The notes beneath the pieces are model-generated. The model was not told where the DNA came from. It was given only the letters and a program-made list of their open reading frames with translations, and made no database searches. A stretch of DNA of 64,000 bases from assembly GCA_019358835.1 (NCBI GenBank), contig JAHHIH010000007.1:62001-126000 (forward strand), in the 5' to 3' direction. This stretch comes from Tildeniella torsiva UHER 1998/13D. GTDB lineage: Bacteria > Cyanobacteriota > Cyanobacteriia > Phormidesmidales > Phormidesmidaceae. Numbering within the stretch: the stretch's first letter is position 1; each line of letters begins with the position of its first letter. Below are positions 2,087 through 49,517 of the stretch, one piece after another. Both the position numbers and the translations under genes were made by a program.

Positions 2087-2380
2087 TCAAGAACTATGGC
2101 GATCGCGGTGGATGTCATAGATCGCCTTCTCCCAGCACCACTGCTCGCTCTGACCAGGGTTGTTCAGCTTCACTTGCTCGACCAGGCGCTCGGCCACAGA
2201 TTGATTCCCCCCCACCAGGCGCAAAAGCTGTCGCTGGGTTTGCCCTCGCACCGACCGGCTGGGGGCAGCGGTGGCGGTTGGCGAGCGATAGGCGGCAGGT
2301 CGGCGGCGGCCCTGGCGACGATTGAGCCAGAAGATGAGCGCGATGATCAGTGCGATCGCCAGTAAAAAAGATAAATCCAT
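2087..2380 (-). CDS. Small membrane-anchored conserved cyanobacterial protein
   Basis: A 97-residue protein with one N-terminal membrane helix (about residues 3-18), a basic Arg/Pro/Ala-rich linker, and a compact C-terminal segment (LLRLVGGNQSVAERLVEQVK ... WCWEKAIYDIHRDR) that resembles small uncharacterised proteins conserved across cyanobacteria. The opposite strand also carries two open frames here, but they read as arginine- and proline-rich shadows without a start signal. Function is unknown. The likely topology is a short helix in the membrane with the conserved tail in the cytoplasm. Confidence 0.7.
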   Translation of the reverse strand: MDLSFLLAIALIIALIFWLNRRQGRRRPAAYRSPTATAAPSRSVRGQTQRQLLRLVGGNQSVAERLVEQVKLNNPGQSEQWCWEKAIYDIHRDRHSS

Positions 2381-4040: not shown

Positions 4041-5183
4041 ATGAAGCGTCGGCAGTTAGTTAAAACGACAACCTTGGGTGTGGCAGCGGCTACGACCGCG
4101 AGTGTGGCGGCATGCACTGGAGCCTCTTCCCCGGTGGCTGAGGGTACCGCTGAGGGTCTGCCTCGCATTGACTGGCAAATGGCGACTAGCTGGCCTGCGG
4201 CCCTCGACACGATTTTGGGCGGGGCGCAGACCTTTGCCGATCGCGTCAGCGCCATGAGCGGCGGGCAGTTCACCATTTCACCCCGCTCCGCTGGCGAAAT
4301 TGCCCCACCGCTAGAGGTGCTCAATGTGGTCTCCCAGGGGGCGGTGCCCTGTGGCCACACGGCCTCGTACTACTACGTGGGGCGCAGTCCGGTGATGGGC
4401 TTTGGGGCTAGTCTGCCCTTTGGCCTCACCCCCCAGCAGCAAAATGCCTGGCTCTATGAGGGGGGCGGGCTAGACAAGCTCCAGGAGTTTTACGCCCGCC
4501 AGTTCAATGTGATCCAGTTTCCTGCCGGTAATACTGGGGCGCAGATGGGGGGGTGGTTTCGCCGCGAGATTGCCAGCGTCAGCGACCTGGCGGGCCTCAA
4601 GATGCGCATTCCCGGTCTGGGGGGCCAGGTGATGAGCAAGCTGGGGGTGACGGTGCAGACGCTGCCGGGGGGCGAGATTTTTCAGGCCCTGCAAACCGGG
4701 GCGATCGATGCTGCCGAGTGGGTCGGCCCCTACGACGACGAAAAGCTGGGGCTGAATAAGGTGGCCCAGTACTACTATTACCCCGGCTGGTGGGAGCCGG
4801 GCAGCACCCTGGAGGTGCAGATTAACCTCGACCAGTGGAATCAGCTGCCTGAGGTCTATCAGCAGATTGTGCGTACGGCGGCTTTTGAGGCCAACACGGA
4901 AATGCTGTCGCGCTACGAAACCCGCAACAACGAAGCCCTGCAGCGCCTGGTTGACGGCGGTGTGCAGCTGCGCGAGTACAGCGCCGAGATTATGACCGCC
5001 GCCCAGGAGGCCACCTTTGACCTCTACGACGAGTTTGCCGCCAGCGATGCCGACTTTAAGGCGATCTATGACGACTGGCGCGGGTTTCGCGATCGCATCT
5101 ATGCCTGGAACCAGCTCAACCAGGGGGCCTTTGAGCGCTTTGTCTACAGCAATCTCAAGGCTGGGGGCGAGGCACCCGCCTAG
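4041..5183 (+). CDS. TRAP transporter substrate-binding protein (DctP/TakP type)
   Basis: This periplasmic solute-binding component of a tripartite ATP-independent transporter has 380 residues. It starts [10 protein letters not shown] with a twin-arginine-like signal, and a Cys in VAACTGA could make it a lipoprotein. The mature part has the DctP fold features: the [11 protein letters not shown] ligand-clamp region near residue 190 and the WWEPG segment seen in TakP-like keto-acid binders and in the cyanobacterial Gtr glutamate TRAP system. The likely substrate is a 2-oxoacid or a dicarboxylate-type acid such as glutamate, inferred only from family resemblance. The permease genes lie immediately downstream but converge on this gene. 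Confidence 0.9.
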
Positions 5184-5204
5184 GCATCAGGTGAATCGGT
5201 GGGG

Positions 5205-6539
5205 CTATTGAAGCGATCGCTCCACCAGCCAGCTCACCGTCTGGGGAAACACCATCACCACCACCAGCACCACCAGCTGAATCGCCATAAAGGGCAGCGC
5301 GCTGCGGTGAATTTCGCGGGTGCTGATGGTTTTTGGGGCCACACTCTGTAAGTAGAACAGCGAGAACCCTACCGGCGGCGAGATAAACGCCGTCTGCAAG
5401 TTCAGCGCCATCACCACCCCAAACCACACCATGTCGATGCCTAACGCCTGGGCGGCGGGCACTAGCAGTGGCATAGCGATAAAGCAAATTTCAATGAATT
5501 CTAAAAACACCCCCATGGCAAAAATCACCAGGTTGGCCACCAGCAAAAAGGTCAGGTAGCCCCCCGGCAGATTTACTAGCAGGTTGGTGATCAGGGTTTT
5601 GCCCCCCAGGGCATCAAACACCAGGCCAAAGAACGACGAGCAAAACAGAATAATCAGCACGATCCCGGTCACGATCGCTGTGGCGTGGGCGGCTTCTTGC
5701 AGCAACTTGAGCGTCAGTCGCCGGTTGAGGGCGGCTAGCCCGCAGGCTCCTACGGCTCCCACCGCGCCCGCTTCGGTGGGGGTGGCAATGCCAAAGAAAA
5801 TGCTGCCCAGCACCACAAAAATCAGCAATACCGGCGGCACGATCGCCTTCACTGAGCGCTTTAGCAGATCCCATTTACTGATCTGGCGCATGGCCAGGGG
5901 CAGCGGTGGCGCGGTACCCGGCTTAAAATAGGCCACCATCAACACATAGACCGCGTAGGCTCCGGCCAGCATCAGCCCTGGTATTAGCGCTCCCAAAAAT
6001 AGATCGCCCACCGACACCCCCAGCTGATCGCTCAGCACCACCAGCACCAAACTGGGCGGAATTAGCTGCGCCAGGGTGCCCGAGGCAATGATGGTGCCAG
6101 CGGCCAACTCTTTGTCGTAGCCGTGGCGCAGCATAATCGGCAGCGAAATCAGACCCATCAGAATGACTGTGGCGGCCACTACCCCGGTTGCCGCCGCCAG
6201 CAGGGTGCCCACCAGCACCACGGCCAGGGCCATACCGCCGCGCAGGGGGCCGAGCACCAGGCCGATGGTCTCTAGCAGCTCCTCCGCCAGGCCCGACTTT
6301 TCGAGCACTGCGCCCAAAAACACAAAAAACGGAATCGCCAGCAGGGTGAAGTTGGCCATGGTGCCAAACCAGATGTTGGGCAGCAGCAAGAGGCGGGCAG
6401 GCTCAAAGGCCCCCAGCAGCCAGCCCACCAGGCCAAACACCAGCCCCGTACCCGCAAACGAAAACGCCACGGGGTAGCCGCTCATCAAAATCAAAAAGAA
6501 GCCAACGAACATCGCGATCGCCAACCACTCGTAGCCCAT
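5205..6539 (-). CDS. TRAP transporter large permease (DctM)
   Basis: The large membrane subunit (444 residues, about 12 or more hydrophobic helices) forms the sodium-coupled translocation path of a TRAP transporter. Family signatures include the N-terminal [14 protein letters not shown] region and the [10 protein letters not shown] loop near residue 160. A strong Shine-Dalgarno (AAGGAG) lies 4 nt before the ATG. It follows the small-permease gene after 65 bases, probably in one transcript. It runs convergently into the binding-protein gene, leaving only about 20 bases between the stop codons. Confidence 0.93.
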
Positions 6540-45874: not shown

Positions 45875-47620
45875 ATGTCTCAAGCCCCCAAACCCTCTGC
45901 CGCCGAGCTTGAACTGCCGCCCGGTTTTCAGTTCGACTCCATTGAGTCGGCGCTCCACGACCTGGCCGCCGGTAAGTCGATTGTGGTGGTGGATGACGAA
46001 AACCGCGAGAACGAAGGCGACGTGATCTGCGCCGCCCAGTTTGCCACCCCCGACAACATCAACTTTATGGCAGTGGAAGCGCGAGGATTGATCTGCCTGG
46101 CCATGACCGGCGAACGGCTCGATCAACTTGACCTGCCGCTGATGGTCAGCCCCAGCGCCTTTGAAGACGAAAACGAGCAAACCGCCTTCACCGTCAGCAT
46201 CGACGCTGGTCTGAACTGGGGCGTCACCACGGGCATTTCCGCCGACGATCGCGCCCGCACGATTCAAGTCGCCATCAACCCCAACGCTCGCCCCCAAGAC
46301 CTCCGCCGACCCGGCCACATCTTTCCGCTACGGGCCAAGGAGGGCGGCGTGCTCAAGCGGGCCGGCCACACCGAAGCCGGGGTCGATCTGGCTCGGCTGG
46401 CGGGCCTCTACCCCGCCGGGGTCATCTGCGAAATTCAAAACCCTGACGGCTCGATGGCACGGCTGCCCGAATTGGTCAACTATGCCAAAAGTTTTGGCCT
46501 CAAGTTAATCAGCATCGCCGATCTCATTCACTACCGACTTCAGCACGAGCGCTTTGTGCAGCGCGAGGCGGTGGCCAAGATGCCCACCCAGTTTGGCGAC
46601 TTTGCTATCTATGCCTACCGCAACCTGCTCGACGGCTCCGAGCATGTGGCTATGGTCAAGGGCGACCCCGCCACCTTTGCTGACCAGTCGGTGATGGTGC
46701 GCGTCCACTCCGAATGCCTCACAGGCGATGCCTTTGGCTCCCTGCGCTGCGACTGCCGCATGCAGCTCCAGGCGGCGCTAAAGATGATCGATGCTGCCGG
46801 GCGCGGCGTGGTGGTCTACCTGCGCCAGGAGGGGCGCGGTATTGGCCTGGTCAACAAGCTCAAGGCCTACTCCCTACAAGACATGGGCCTTGACACGGTG
46901 GAGGCCAACGAAAAGCTGGGCCTGCCCGTTGACCAGCGCAACTACGGCATCGGCGCGCAGATTCTCAACGATATCGGCGTGCAGAAATTTTGCCTAATCA
47001 CCAATAACCCGCGCAAAATCGCGGGCATCAAGGGCTATGGCCTAGAAATGGTGAGCCGGGTGCCGCTGATTATTGAAGCCACCGACCACAACTCGGGCTA
47101 TCTGGCCACTAAGGCCCAAAAGCTGGGCCACCTGCTGGTGCAGACCTACCTGGCCACGGTGGCGATCCACTGGCGCAGCGGCGATCTGCCGGTGCAGGAG
47201 CGCTACCAAAAGCTAGAGCACCTGCGCGAGCTAGCCCACAGCCAGGGCCTAATGCTGCAAGAAGAAGCCCGCCCAGTGGCGGCGGCGCTATTTAGCCAGC
47301 CCGATCTAATTGTGAATTTGGGGTTAGATACCTTGCCTGTAGAAGGGGCTGAGGTTTGGTATCAGGATTGTGCACAGCCGCAGATGAAGACCGTTGCCAC
47401 CCTACTCGACAAACTTGCCGCCTGGCCCGAAATCGATCAGCTCGCGTTCTTAATCTCCAGCGGCAGCGACCCCTTCAGCGGCTTGCAGGTCGGCCTCGAT
47501 CGCCAGGTGTTTCATCACGACGCAGTGCCAACCCCCGAAACCGTCAAACCCTCTGACCTCTGCGGCCGCCTTGAGAGCCAGCGCATCTACGTATTCTCCA
47601 GCCATCTTCCAGCAGATTAG
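45875..47620 (+). CDS. ribBA: Bifunctional riboflavin enzyme: DHBP synthase and GTP cyclohydrolase II
   Basis: RibBA starts riboflavin synthesis. Residues about 20-225 are the RibB domain (VVDDENRENEGD acidic metal site), and about 230-420 the RibA domain with the zinc motif Cys-x10-Cys-x-Cys (SECLTGDAFGSLRCDCR) and RQEGRGIGL. A C-terminal extension of about 150 residues follows, common in cyanobacterial RibBA and of unclear function. ATG 45875 and GTG 45854 are both possible starts; neither has a clear ribosome site. Confidence 0.94.
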   Translation: MSQAPKPSAAELELPPGFQFDSIESALHDLAAGKSIVVVDDENRENEGDVICAAQFATPDNINFMAVEARGLICLAMTGERLDQLDLPLMVSPSAFEDENEQTAFTVSIDAGLNWGVTTGISADDRARTIQVAINPNARPQDLRRPGHIFPLRAKEGGVLKRAGHTEAGVDLARLAGLYPAGVICEIQNPDGSMARLPELVNYAKSFGLKLISIADLIHYRLQHERFVQREAVAKMPTQFGDFAIYAYRNLLDGSEHVAMVKGDPATFADQSVMVRVHSECLTGDAFGSLRCDCRMQLQAALKMIDAAGRGVVVYLRQEGRGIGLVNKLKAYSLQDMGLDTVEANEKLGLPVDQRNYGIGAQILNDIGVQKFCLITNNPRKIAGIKGYGLEMVSRVPLIIEATDHNSGYLATKAQKLGHLLVQTYLATVAIHWRSGDLPVQERYQKLEHLRELAHSQGLMLQEEARPVAAALFSQPDLIVNLGLDTLPVEGAEVWYQDCAQPQMKTVATLLDKLAAWPEIDQLAFLISSGSDPFSGLQVGLDRQVFHHDAVPTPETVKPSDLCGRLESQRIYVFSSHLPAD

Positions 47621-47705
47621 CTGGCTAATTACAGTTTGGGCATAGCGCTATGGGAACTTAAAGGTAATGAGGGTAGCTAAATCTGATATCAGCTATAATC
47701 GTAAA

Positions 47706-47789
47706 TGTATGGGGGCTCGTGGTTGGGGCGTCGGGCGATTAAGCTATTAACTTAAACCCGGAAACTAGGTTCGATTCCTGGCCATACAC
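47706..47789 (+). tRNA. Atypical tRNA-like gene with enlarged anticodon loop
   Basis: A 7-bp perfect acceptor stem (TGTATGG / CCATACA) and a canonical T-arm (CTAGG, loop TTCGATT, CCTGG) are clear. A D-arm GCTC / GGGC with a 7-nt loop is followed by a 5-bp anticodon-like stem TCGGG / CCCGG, but its loop is 21 nt and contains a second hairpin (TTAAG / CTTAA around CTATTAA). If that inner hairpin is the true anticodon arm, the anticodon reads ATT and the D-loop and variable loop are too long. Position 8 is G instead of the usual T. It is degenerate, intron-like or a specialised tRNA-like RNA. No CCA is encoded. Confidence 0.5.
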
Positions 47790-47796
47790 TTAACTG

Positions 47797-48576
47797 ATGC
47801 AGACTCCAGCACTAGATCGATTCCTCAAGCAAGTTGGCAAGGTTGTTCACCACCTTAATACGACTGTAGTAGGACTTTCTGCTGTCGAGGCTGGAACTGC
47901 TACAAAGCCAATAAAGTTAGACATTTCTTGGCAGCCCTCAAATGTGATCGCTTCAAGCAGACAAGCGCGCGCATTTATAATGCAGGCAACCTTGGTAACC
48001 GTTGCTGAAGAATTGGTTGCTTATGTTGTAGACTTAGCATTCTCACCAGCCTGTTCAGGACTAACTTTTTCAAGCGATGCTAATCGCGCCAATAAGTTCA
48101 AGGCTTTAAGAGAATATTGCCATCTAGAAGAAAATCATCTTTCTCTTGGCCCACTTTTGGTAATTCACTGGCGTAACAAAATTATTCATCGCAAATCACA
48201 AGCCGGACTTACAAAAGGCCAACGTGAAATTTTAATTAGTGAATCTGATGTTGTCAAAAACAACTATAAGAACCTCGATCCAGTTCTCTTGCTACAGCAC
48301 TTTGATGTAAATACGCCTACATTGAAAGATGTCTCATCGCTTGTGGCAATCACAATCAATTTCGTGAAAATCGTTGATAGATCTCTCCCAGAGCCTGCTT
48401 CAAAGTCAGAAGTTCTAGAATGGTTGGAGTATCTTGATCTGACAACTAACCTTGAGCGAGTTGAACGAGTTTCAAGAGCTAAAGGAAAATTAGATCAAGG
48501 GATTACAAACTTTCTTATGACTCATTGTCCATACCTTAAAGACTCATATTTCCAGTATGTTTATGATGAGTCTTAA
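47797..48576 (+). CDS. Hypothetical protein with HEPN-like Rx4H motif
   Basis: A 259-residue, mostly helical protein. Arg126 to His131 (WRNKIIH) forms an Rx4H motif with Asn next to Arg, the active-site pattern of HEPN ribonucleases, set at the end of a long helix as in that family. Overall I do not recognise the full-length family. Its base composition is visibly more AT-rich than neighbouring genes, suggesting acquisition. The ATG lies only eight bases after the tRNA-like sequence, with no ribosome site, so it may share its transcript. Confidence 0.65.
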   Translation: MQTPALDRFLKQVGKVVHHLNTTVVGLSAVEAGTATKPIKLDISWQPSNVIASSRQARAFIMQATLVTVAEELVAYVVDLAFSPACSGLTFSSDANRANKFKALREYCHLEENHLSLGPLLVIHWRNKIIHRKSQAGLTKGQREILISESDVVKNNYKNLDPVLLLQHFDVNTPTLKDVSSLVAITINFVKIVDRSLPEPASKSEVLEWLEYLDLTTNLERVERVSRAKGKLDQGITNFLMTHCPYLKDSYFQYVYDES

Positions 48577-48634
48577 CTATGAGCATGTGTCAACCGCCTC
48601 TCTAAAGATTGAGGGGAAAGCTGTTTAAGCCACC

Positions 48635-48730
48635 TTGAGGGCAGCGATAACTGAGTTACTTGAGCAGGCGATCGCACGGTTGCAGACATTGCCTGAGAGC
48701 GAGCAAAATGCGATCTCCACTTTCCTCTAA
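48635..48730 (+). pseudogene. Antitoxin gene remnant
   Basis: A short frame (TTG start) reading ITELLEQAIARLQTLPESEQ resembles the N-terminus of small cyanobacterial antitoxins, which normally continue for 40 or so more residues. A stop after 31 codons truncates it, and no toxin follows. It is a probable decayed toxin-antitoxin gene. Confidence 0.45.
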
Positions 48731-48761: not shown

Positions 48762-48995
48762 ATGCTAAACATAACAATAGATGAGATCCAGCGCGATCCA
48801 CTTAAGTATCTTCGCCAAGTAGAGGCAGGGGAGACGCTTGTTGTCTTTAGGGCTGATGAGGCGATCGCAGAACTCAAGCCCATCACCAAAGATAAACAAC
48901 TGCGACCATTTGGCCTATGTGCTGGTGAGTTTACTGTCCCAGAAGATTTTGATACGCCTCTACCCGAAGAGCAGCTGAGCGCATTCGAAGATTAA
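48762..48995 (+). CDS. Phd/YefM-like antitoxin
   Basis: A 77-residue protein opening MLNITIDEIQRDPLKYLRQV, typical of the Phd/YefM antitoxins that pair with VapC-type toxins in cyanobacteria (VEAGETLVVFRADEAIAELKPI core). The C-terminal part (RPFGLCAGEFTVPEDFD) is the toxin-binding segment. No VapC gene follows, so it is an orphan or has lost its partner. Confidence 0.75.
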   Translation: MLNITIDEIQRDPLKYLRQVEAGETLVVFRADEAIAELKPITKDKQLRPFGLCAGEFTVPEDFDTPLPEEQLSAFED

Positions 48996-49056: not shown

Positions 49057-49257
49057 ATGTCTAACTTGGAGCAAATTGAAGCTGCCATCCTTTCGTTGCC
49101 ATCAAGTGAGTTTGAAAGACTAAAACTTTGGCTTCTCGACCTAGATTATGACCGCTGGGATGAACAGCTAGAGCAGGACGTTTCAGATGGCAAATTAGAT
49201 GCGCTAGCTCAGGAGGCGATCGCTGAGTTTGAATCAGGGCATTGCCGAGAAATCTAA
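49057..49257 (+). CDS. Antitoxin of a ParE/RelE-type pair
   Basis: A 66-residue acidic helical protein (LEQIEAAILSLPSSEFERLK ... EAIAEFESG) of the kind found upstream of RelE/ParE-like toxins in cyanobacteria. Its stop TAA overlaps the toxin ATG by one base (TAATG), indicating coupled translation. Function as antitoxin is inferred from context. Confidence 0.78.
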   Translation: MSNLEQIEAAILSLPSSEFERLKLWLLDLDYDRWDEQLEQDVSDGKLDALAQEAIAEFESGHCREI

Positions 49258-49517
49258 TGCACTACGCAACTCGACGGTTCTGGCAATGCTATGACGCTTT
49301 GCCAGAAAAAGCGAAGCGAACAGCTGACGAATGCTACGAATTACTTAAAACTGATTCATCCCATCCATCATTACACTTCAAGAGGTTGGGCAAAAAGTAT
49401 TGGTCAGTGCGAGCAGGTTTGAGCTATCGAGCTTTGGGAGTAGAAGTAGAAAATGGTATTTCCTGGTTCTGGATTGGAACTCATGCAGAGTATGACAAGC
49501 TGATCGGTCGCTTGTAA
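49257..49517 (+). CDS. RelE/ParE-like toxin
   Basis: An 86-residue basic protein of the RelE/ParE superfamily. It starts MHYATRRFWQCYDALP and contains the conserved HPSLHFKRLGKKYWSVRAG and YRALG stretches and the C-terminal WIGTHAEYDKLI motif. It most likely blocks translation by cutting mRNA or acts on gyrase; the target is unknown. ATG 49257 was chosen over an upstream TTG because of the one-base overlap with the antitoxin gene. Confidence 0.82.
   Translation: MHYATRRFWQCYDALPEKAKRTADECYELLKTDSSHPSLHFKRLGKKYWSVRAGLSYRALGVEVENGISWFWIGTHAEYDKLIGRL

Follow-up and report, generated by a model that had tools for sequence, protein, structure and literature searches.

A tRNA-like RNA with an enlarged anticodon loop and the adjacent HEPN-like protein resemble a mobile RNA-controlled toxin or virus-defence unit

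In AbiF, a HEPN-type protein with an Rx4H motif is directly preceded by the structured abiF ncRNA, which is described as its RNA antitoxin (PMC12373285). PrrC and RloC are presented as HEPN nucleases that target tRNA anticodons during defence against phages (PMC3710099), and for YrlA the authors raised the possibility of competitive inhibition of an anticodon nuclease by its tRNA-like domain (PMC7790460). The locus described here combines a tRNA-shaped RNA with a HEPN-like protein, and was identified in the window, the whole stretch of 64,000 nucleotides of DNA that was analysed.

The tRNA-like RNA spans positions 47706..47789 of the forward strand and displays a full cloverleaf including the discriminator base at 47789, as supported by reading of the sequence, segmentation, covariation in 14 distinct RNAs and a match to a leave-out model. 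Segmentation assigns a 7-bp acceptor stem (47706-47712/47782-47788), a 4-bp D stem, a 5-bp anticodon stem whose first pair is T-G (47731-47735/47757-47761) and a T arm (47765..47781) comprising a 5-bp T stem and a TTCGATT loop, all on the forward strand. The usual 7-nt anticodon loop is replaced by a loop of 21 nt (47736..47756) containing a possible inner hairpin, TTAAG/CTTAA. The discriminator base is separated by 7 nt, in which no ribosome-binding site is visible by eye, from the start of the forward-strand ORF at 47797..48576, which encodes a HEPN-like protein of 259 aa, termed P0001. The codons of its Rx4H motif, W125-R-N-K-I-I-H131 with R126 and H131 as the motif residues, extend from 48169 to 48189 (forward strand). 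Both the motif and the missing ribosome site, reported in the initial annotation, were thus confirmed. A TATAAT sequence at 47694..47699 (forward strand), 6 nt before the RNA, is a candidate -10 box lacking a good -35 box; the best site, AGGGTA-18-TATAAT, has a shuffle p of 0.256, and the box is therefore not significant in the window alone. A sigma-70-like promoter just upstream of the RNA reaches shuffle p<=0.05 in seven of 14 loci, the window not being among them.

The RNA-protein unit has a G+C content of 0.38-0.46, compared with ~0.6 in the genes on both sides, and the window is GCGATCGC-rich, which together with its gene content suggests a cyanobacterial origin. The upstream gene was found in 23 of the 24 genomes searched, and alignments of the 14 loci fetched at this gene all end at 47619-47628 of the window. 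None of these 14 presents any aligned stretch inside 47629-48639, and alignment resumes further on in six, the congener flanks compared extending to at most 1.5 kb and being shorter in some, notably L098. The proposal of a foreign-looking, low-G+C insert is thereby upheld for the congeners compared. Beside the unit, the window also contains a ParE-like toxin at 49257-49517 (Pfam PF24732, E 1.2e-07), upstream of which two small ORFs (48762-48995 and 49057-49257) presented no Pfam family match.

Homologues were sought by the protein alone, using tblastn, and 14 further loci were recovered, making 15 with the window. Plasmids provided a Sinorhizobium copy (L034) and a frameshifted Pseudoalteromonas copy (L035), species genomes gave L036-L040, viral contigs gave L046, L047 and L052, and whole genomes gave L049 and L055-L057; the remaining L numbers from the homologue searches are repeats of the same 15 places. 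The first single-protein scans of genome contigs and viral sequences returned nothing, and no copy was found in phage records. The protein occurs in one of 386 genomes of the window's phylum, in two of the 369 genomes taken from the class to which the Thalassotalea carrier belongs and in four of 289 from that of the Asticcacaulis carrier (the seed counted in both), and in one of 274, the seed itself, in the class of the L036 genome, a draw that overlaps the Thalassotalea-class draw. These low counts reveal that the RNA-protein unit is rare and scattered.

At all 15 loci a cloverleaf RNA with an anticodon loop of 19-30 nt lies directly upstream of the protein gene, the RNA coming first with a gap of 5-26 nt to the ORF in the 11 loci measured. 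L035 and L037 have one RNA in common, leaving 14 distinct RNAs for comparison. A covariance scan of the 289 genomes gave 16 matches at E<=1e-13, of which 12 are 74-76 nt long, the six of these checked with ARAGORN being ordinary tRNAs, and four are 91-98 nt long and belong to protein carriers, such that the long-loop RNA and the protein co-occur in the same four genomes. In a second scan, of 262 genomes, seven matches passed, comprising the known Thalassotalea RNA and six of 74-75 nt. No long match without the protein was observed in either scan, in which weak orphan RNAs could be missed because only 15-16 candidates were scored per genome. The full model also scores normal tRNAs, at up to 63 bits, and the paired RNA still ranks top in 10 of 10 carrier genomes. 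A DNA search with the window RNA against 63 genomes of its order returned, apart from the RNA itself, nothing longer than 40-nt fragments (best E 0.0139). The tRNA-like RNA and the HEPN-like protein are almost certainly one functional unit, as first proposed from their adjacency, with the pairing conserved at every locus found by the protein alone.

When folded freely, the window RNA is unremarkable in stability (z -1.13; 26 of 200 shuffles equally stable), and its minimum-energy fold differs from a plain cloverleaf. The inner hairpin of the 21-nt loop, one element of the initial annotation, is not significant in the window, being no better than in shuffled loops (p 0.2). Summed over 14 loops, eight of 1000 shuffles were as low, and 15 of 1000 in a one-per-clade subset, the rows not being independent; as a general feature of the loop, the hairpin is weakly suggested. 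Since neither single-sequence fold nor hairpin exceeds shuffles, the reality of the window RNA rests on comparison. A covariance model built from 12 other RNAs, with the window RNA and its nearest relative, that of L036, left out, returned the window RNA as the sole window match at E<=1 (28.9 bits, E 2e-5, 82.8 kb searched), although its alignment omits most of the acceptor stem; the L036 RNA was also recovered, at 39.5 bits. Segmentation confirms the acceptor stem, T arm and enlarged anticodon-like loop first read from the sequence.

Comparison of the 14 distinct RNAs revealed that stem pairing is retained in 92.9% of 294 cells in the MAFFT alignment and in 94.6% in the model-fitted alignment. 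Both-sided changes were observed at 18 of 21 stem pairs, with covariation of 0.83-0.86 versus at most 0.24 in slid controls, and these pairing and covariation measures were matched by none of 500 shuffles, except for one measure with one of 500. The D-loop GG, the T-loop TTCRA and the G53-C61 pair are present in 14/14 RNAs, and the tRNA elbow is therefore kept while the decoding loop is not. The 3' CCA is encoded in eight of the 14. Distances between proteins and between RNAs are strongly correlated (Mantel r 0.885; 0 of 10000 permutations as high); judged by their sequences, RNA and protein diverged in parallel. The RNA arms are 70-82% like several tRNA isotypes, with no clear nearest one, in a comparison biased by its reference of 29 tRNAs from regions picked by the model. 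The first T-stem pair, 49-65, is a G.A mismatch in six of the 14 RNAs (L037, L038, L039, L046, L056 and L057). This pair presumably matters for EF-Tu binding, and the mismatch would perhaps keep the mimic out of translation.

A structural model of the protein, predicted by AlphaFold from nine sequences, has a pLDDT of 88.5 and a pTM of 0.83, while single-sequence prediction (pLDDT 40) was useless. Structural comparison using VIA-align revealed that the first 11 rows are HepT/HEPN toxin entries or YutE, a DUF86, HepT-like protein, with Z of 8.6-11.3 over residues ~1-200, the first other row following at Z 7.0; helical models can reach Z 13 in this comparison by common arrangement. Foldseek matches to HEPN entries have E ~0.3 and a probability of up to 0.97. 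The WRNxxxH motif (R-N-x3-H) is invariant in 14/14 proteins, within an alignment displaying 13 invariant columns and pairwise identity down to 16%. The modelled protein thus presents a HEPN-like fold with an invariant R-N-x3-H motif, in agreement with the fold first suggested from its sequence. Searches of P0001 against Pfam, NCBIfam and PADLOC gave no match, DUF4432 alone appearing, at E 0.088 and far under the cut-off, and ten family members presented no convincing family match (rpo30_N, E 0.002, in one). No sequence relatives were found in the PDB, and no fold match at E<=0.001 in BFVD. Overall, the RNA was found to be conserved and distinct from ordinary tRNAs, the predicted fold to be HEPN-like and the homologues to retain the RNA, the reverse of each outcome that the initial annotation had named as contrary to its reading.

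Defence, toxin-antitoxin and mobile genes adjoin many copies. The unit neighbours HTH_37 and Gp49 (TA-like) in L036, ApeA and RES domains in L034, an MvaI/BcnI restriction enzyme and C5 methylase in L052, DUF4365 (PADLOC PDC-M02A) in L049, ASCH (PDC-M11B) in L057, RelA_SpoT in L039 and an HNH/AAA-like protein in L037. The L046 contig is virus-like, with an integrase fragment, and carries ~3 kb from the unit a retron-type reverse transcriptase (L046:730-1968, - strand; PADLOC RT_IV, E 3.7e-181), while L047 adjoins a tape-measure gene. No defence family was detected among the scanned neighbours of L038, L055 and L056; the scan did not cover L035 and L040. Strict-motif attC pairs were absent. A looser attC motif was observed upstream in L035, L039 and L052, downstream in L039 and, weakly, in L049, L038 and L052, and not in L037 or L046. 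The attC-like sites on both sides of the unit in L039 mean that a cassette there would hold the RNA and ORF alone. An integrase N-terminal domain, probably of integron type, lies upstream of the unit in L049. Some copies look like integron cassettes, and the RNA-HEPN pair, present across distant bacteria, has the appearance of a mobile toxin or virus-defence unit under RNA control.

It is quite plausible that the pair constitutes a type-III-like module, in which a HEPN RNase, perhaps one that cuts tRNA, is held in check by the tRNA-mimic RNA. Of the three roles first proposed for the RNA, those of antitoxin or decoy have the best support, and nothing points to the third, a guide. Such a two-part mobile unit would be expressed as a single transcript, with the tRNA-mimic RNA first and the HEPN protein second. 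The RNA would be excised by tRNA-maturation enzymes on account of its tRNA-like elbow and acceptor stem, yielding a mature form that may be stable and abundant. The HEPN protein would be an RNase recognising tRNA-shaped RNA, perhaps cutting the anticodon arm, and the mimic, a poor substrate by virtue of its swollen loop, would occupy the substrate site and hold the protein inactive. Disturbance of transcription or RNA stability, for example by a phage, would lower the level of mimic, and the freed RNase could then halt translation. The target may nevertheless be any RNA.

This inhibitory role is supported by the upstream RNA at 15/15 loci and its covariation, the elbow kept without a decoding loop, the HEPN fold and motif, the Mantel correlation, the co-occurrence in 4/289 genomes, the RNA-first layout with a short gap, the defence and toxin-antitoxin neighbours and the cassette-like borders. 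Against it count the single RNA match per locus (14 loci), as opposed to the repeats of type III antitoxins and the abiF motif, the Foldseek E of ~0.3 and the VIA-align warning on helical models, the promoter support confined to seven of 14 loci without the window, and the mimicked tRNA isotype, which is not singled out. A possible overlap of RNA and coding frame in L056 and L057, also fitting cis-regulation, counts likewise.

An unlikely alternative is that the RNA acts as a sensor or activating cofactor, serving as bait for the tRNA-cutting, tRNA-repairing or tRNA-modifying enzymes of phages, or as a ligand that would turn on the HEPN protein once the bait has been altered. An abnormal loop combined with an intact tRNA elbow would suit such a bait, as would the defence genes beside several copies and the place of the HEPN anticodon nucleases PrrC and RloC in anti-phage defence, as described in PMC3710099. 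The RNA-before-toxin layout is, however, that described for RNA-antitoxin systems (PMC12373285), and nothing here shows activation.

It is improbable that the RNA is instead a cis-acting leader, in which case the mRNA of the protein would be controlled through processing of the tRNA-like element, or through binding of the protein to it, with no action in trans. The gap of just 5-26 nt would agree with this, as would the frames of three copies: no ATG, GTG or TTG separates RNA from protein homology in L056:1394-1500 and L057 ~2262-2352 (- strand), such that RNA and coding frame may overlap, and the reading frame continues open upstream into the RNA in both, with ATGs in the enlarged loop, and also in L036:3917-4004. 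A leader, however, does not require a full cloverleaf with elbow signals, and eight of the 14 RNAs encode the 3' CCA. It is very improbable that the RNA lies beside the gene by chance, as a functional tRNA that is unusual or contains an intron, or as a tRNA gene or pseudogene serving for integration, since the cloverleaf and the ARAGORN calls of tRNA or tRNA-??? at L040, L047, L049, L055 and L057 are opposed by loops of 19-30 nt without a consistent anticodon in 14/14 RNAs, by long matches never occurring without the protein and by pairing kept across very divergent copies. ARAGORN made no tRNA call at the RNA in L034-L039, L046, L052, L056 or the window. In the window it found neither a tRNA nor a tmRNA with a tag frame, and Rfam, the abiF motif included, gave no family at the gathering cut-off, a lax search returning tRNA-Sec and bxd_1 only (best tRNA-Sec 16.2 bits versus a cut-off of 47). 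An ordinary tRNA or tmRNA was rejected on the ARAGORN result and the absent 7-nt loop.

A related arrangement was observed in two of 5426 E. coli genomes, where the 5' half of the RNA (D arm and swollen anticodon arm, without the T arm) precedes another protein. In NZ_CP135706.1 the RNA half occupies L111:5002-5082 and the protein 5158-6285, with the same layout in L112. The protein, WP_063121962.1, comprises 375 aa with the Rx4H sequence RNSVAH, lies in a stretch next to icd that also carries integrase and excisionase genes, and matched nothing in Pfam or PADLOC. An RNA pattern scan of viral contigs gave 20 stretches, of which L120, on an already known contig, and L126 resemble the tRNA-like RNA, the rest looking like chance. 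L126 looks from its sequence like a decayed or variant copy and displays the same layout at ~4965 (- strand), with a protein 82% identical to WP_063121962.1. An Aeromonas plasmid (L113:2501-2587) carries the protein (85%) and the leader without the RNA half. The 5' half before WP_063121962.1 may be a recombination remnant or may represent a second RNA-HEPN type.

More tentatively, the RNA-HEPN pair may represent an undescribed class of module for immunity or addiction. Its RNA would be a dedicated tRNA mimic that keeps the elbow intact, has a remodelled anticodon loop and serves a new HEPN family as specific partner and inhibitor, loop types and proteins having diverged together. Since in E. 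coli the same 5' half precedes another Rx4H protein unrelated to the first, recognition may reside in the swollen anticodon arm as a transferable element. The pair is small, and its RNA resembles the expected ligand of a tRNA-cutting enzyme. Confirmation of the inhibitory role would extend the range of RNA-antitoxin systems past ToxI-like repeats and the abiF motif, bring in an anti-phage candidate that the PADLOC 2023 models lack, and mean that enlarging one loop turns a tRNA into an inhibitor. The co-occurrence in one class and the cassette-like borders provide leads to further copies.

No description of a HEPN protein with a tRNA-like RNA as its partner was found in open-licence PMC full texts, which is no proof of absence; a 2025 paper in Cell reportedly deals with RNA toxin-antitoxins and the origins of Cas13. 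HEPN-MNT systems (HepT-MntA, type VII) provide the best structural matches of the protein. No MNT nucleotidyltransferase was found among the part of the neighbours scanned with Pfam, and H131 is followed by RK, whereas the HepT motif is HxY. Type III toxin-antitoxin systems (ToxIN, CptIN, TenpIN) likewise have an RNA gene before a probable RNase gene in a mobile, defence-like setting. In contrast, the toxin here is HEPN-like and tandem tRNA-like repeats were not seen, with one R1 match per locus at 14 loci. YrlA and bacterial Y RNAs, with Ro (Rsr) and the RtcR operon, are also tRNA-like RNAs and have another protein partner, while PrrC and RloC are controlled by other protein domains, with no tRNA-mimic RNA in the description given by PMC3710099. 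Membership of AbiF was examined through Abi_2, with no Pfam match in P0001 or 10 family members, and through the Rfam abiF motif, with no match in the window, and the pair is therefore not filed under AbiF. AbiF (Abi_2) is nevertheless the nearest known design, combining an upstream structured RNA with a HEPN Rx4H protein; its RNA is an array of two motifs, whereas the RNA described here is a single tRNA cloverleaf.
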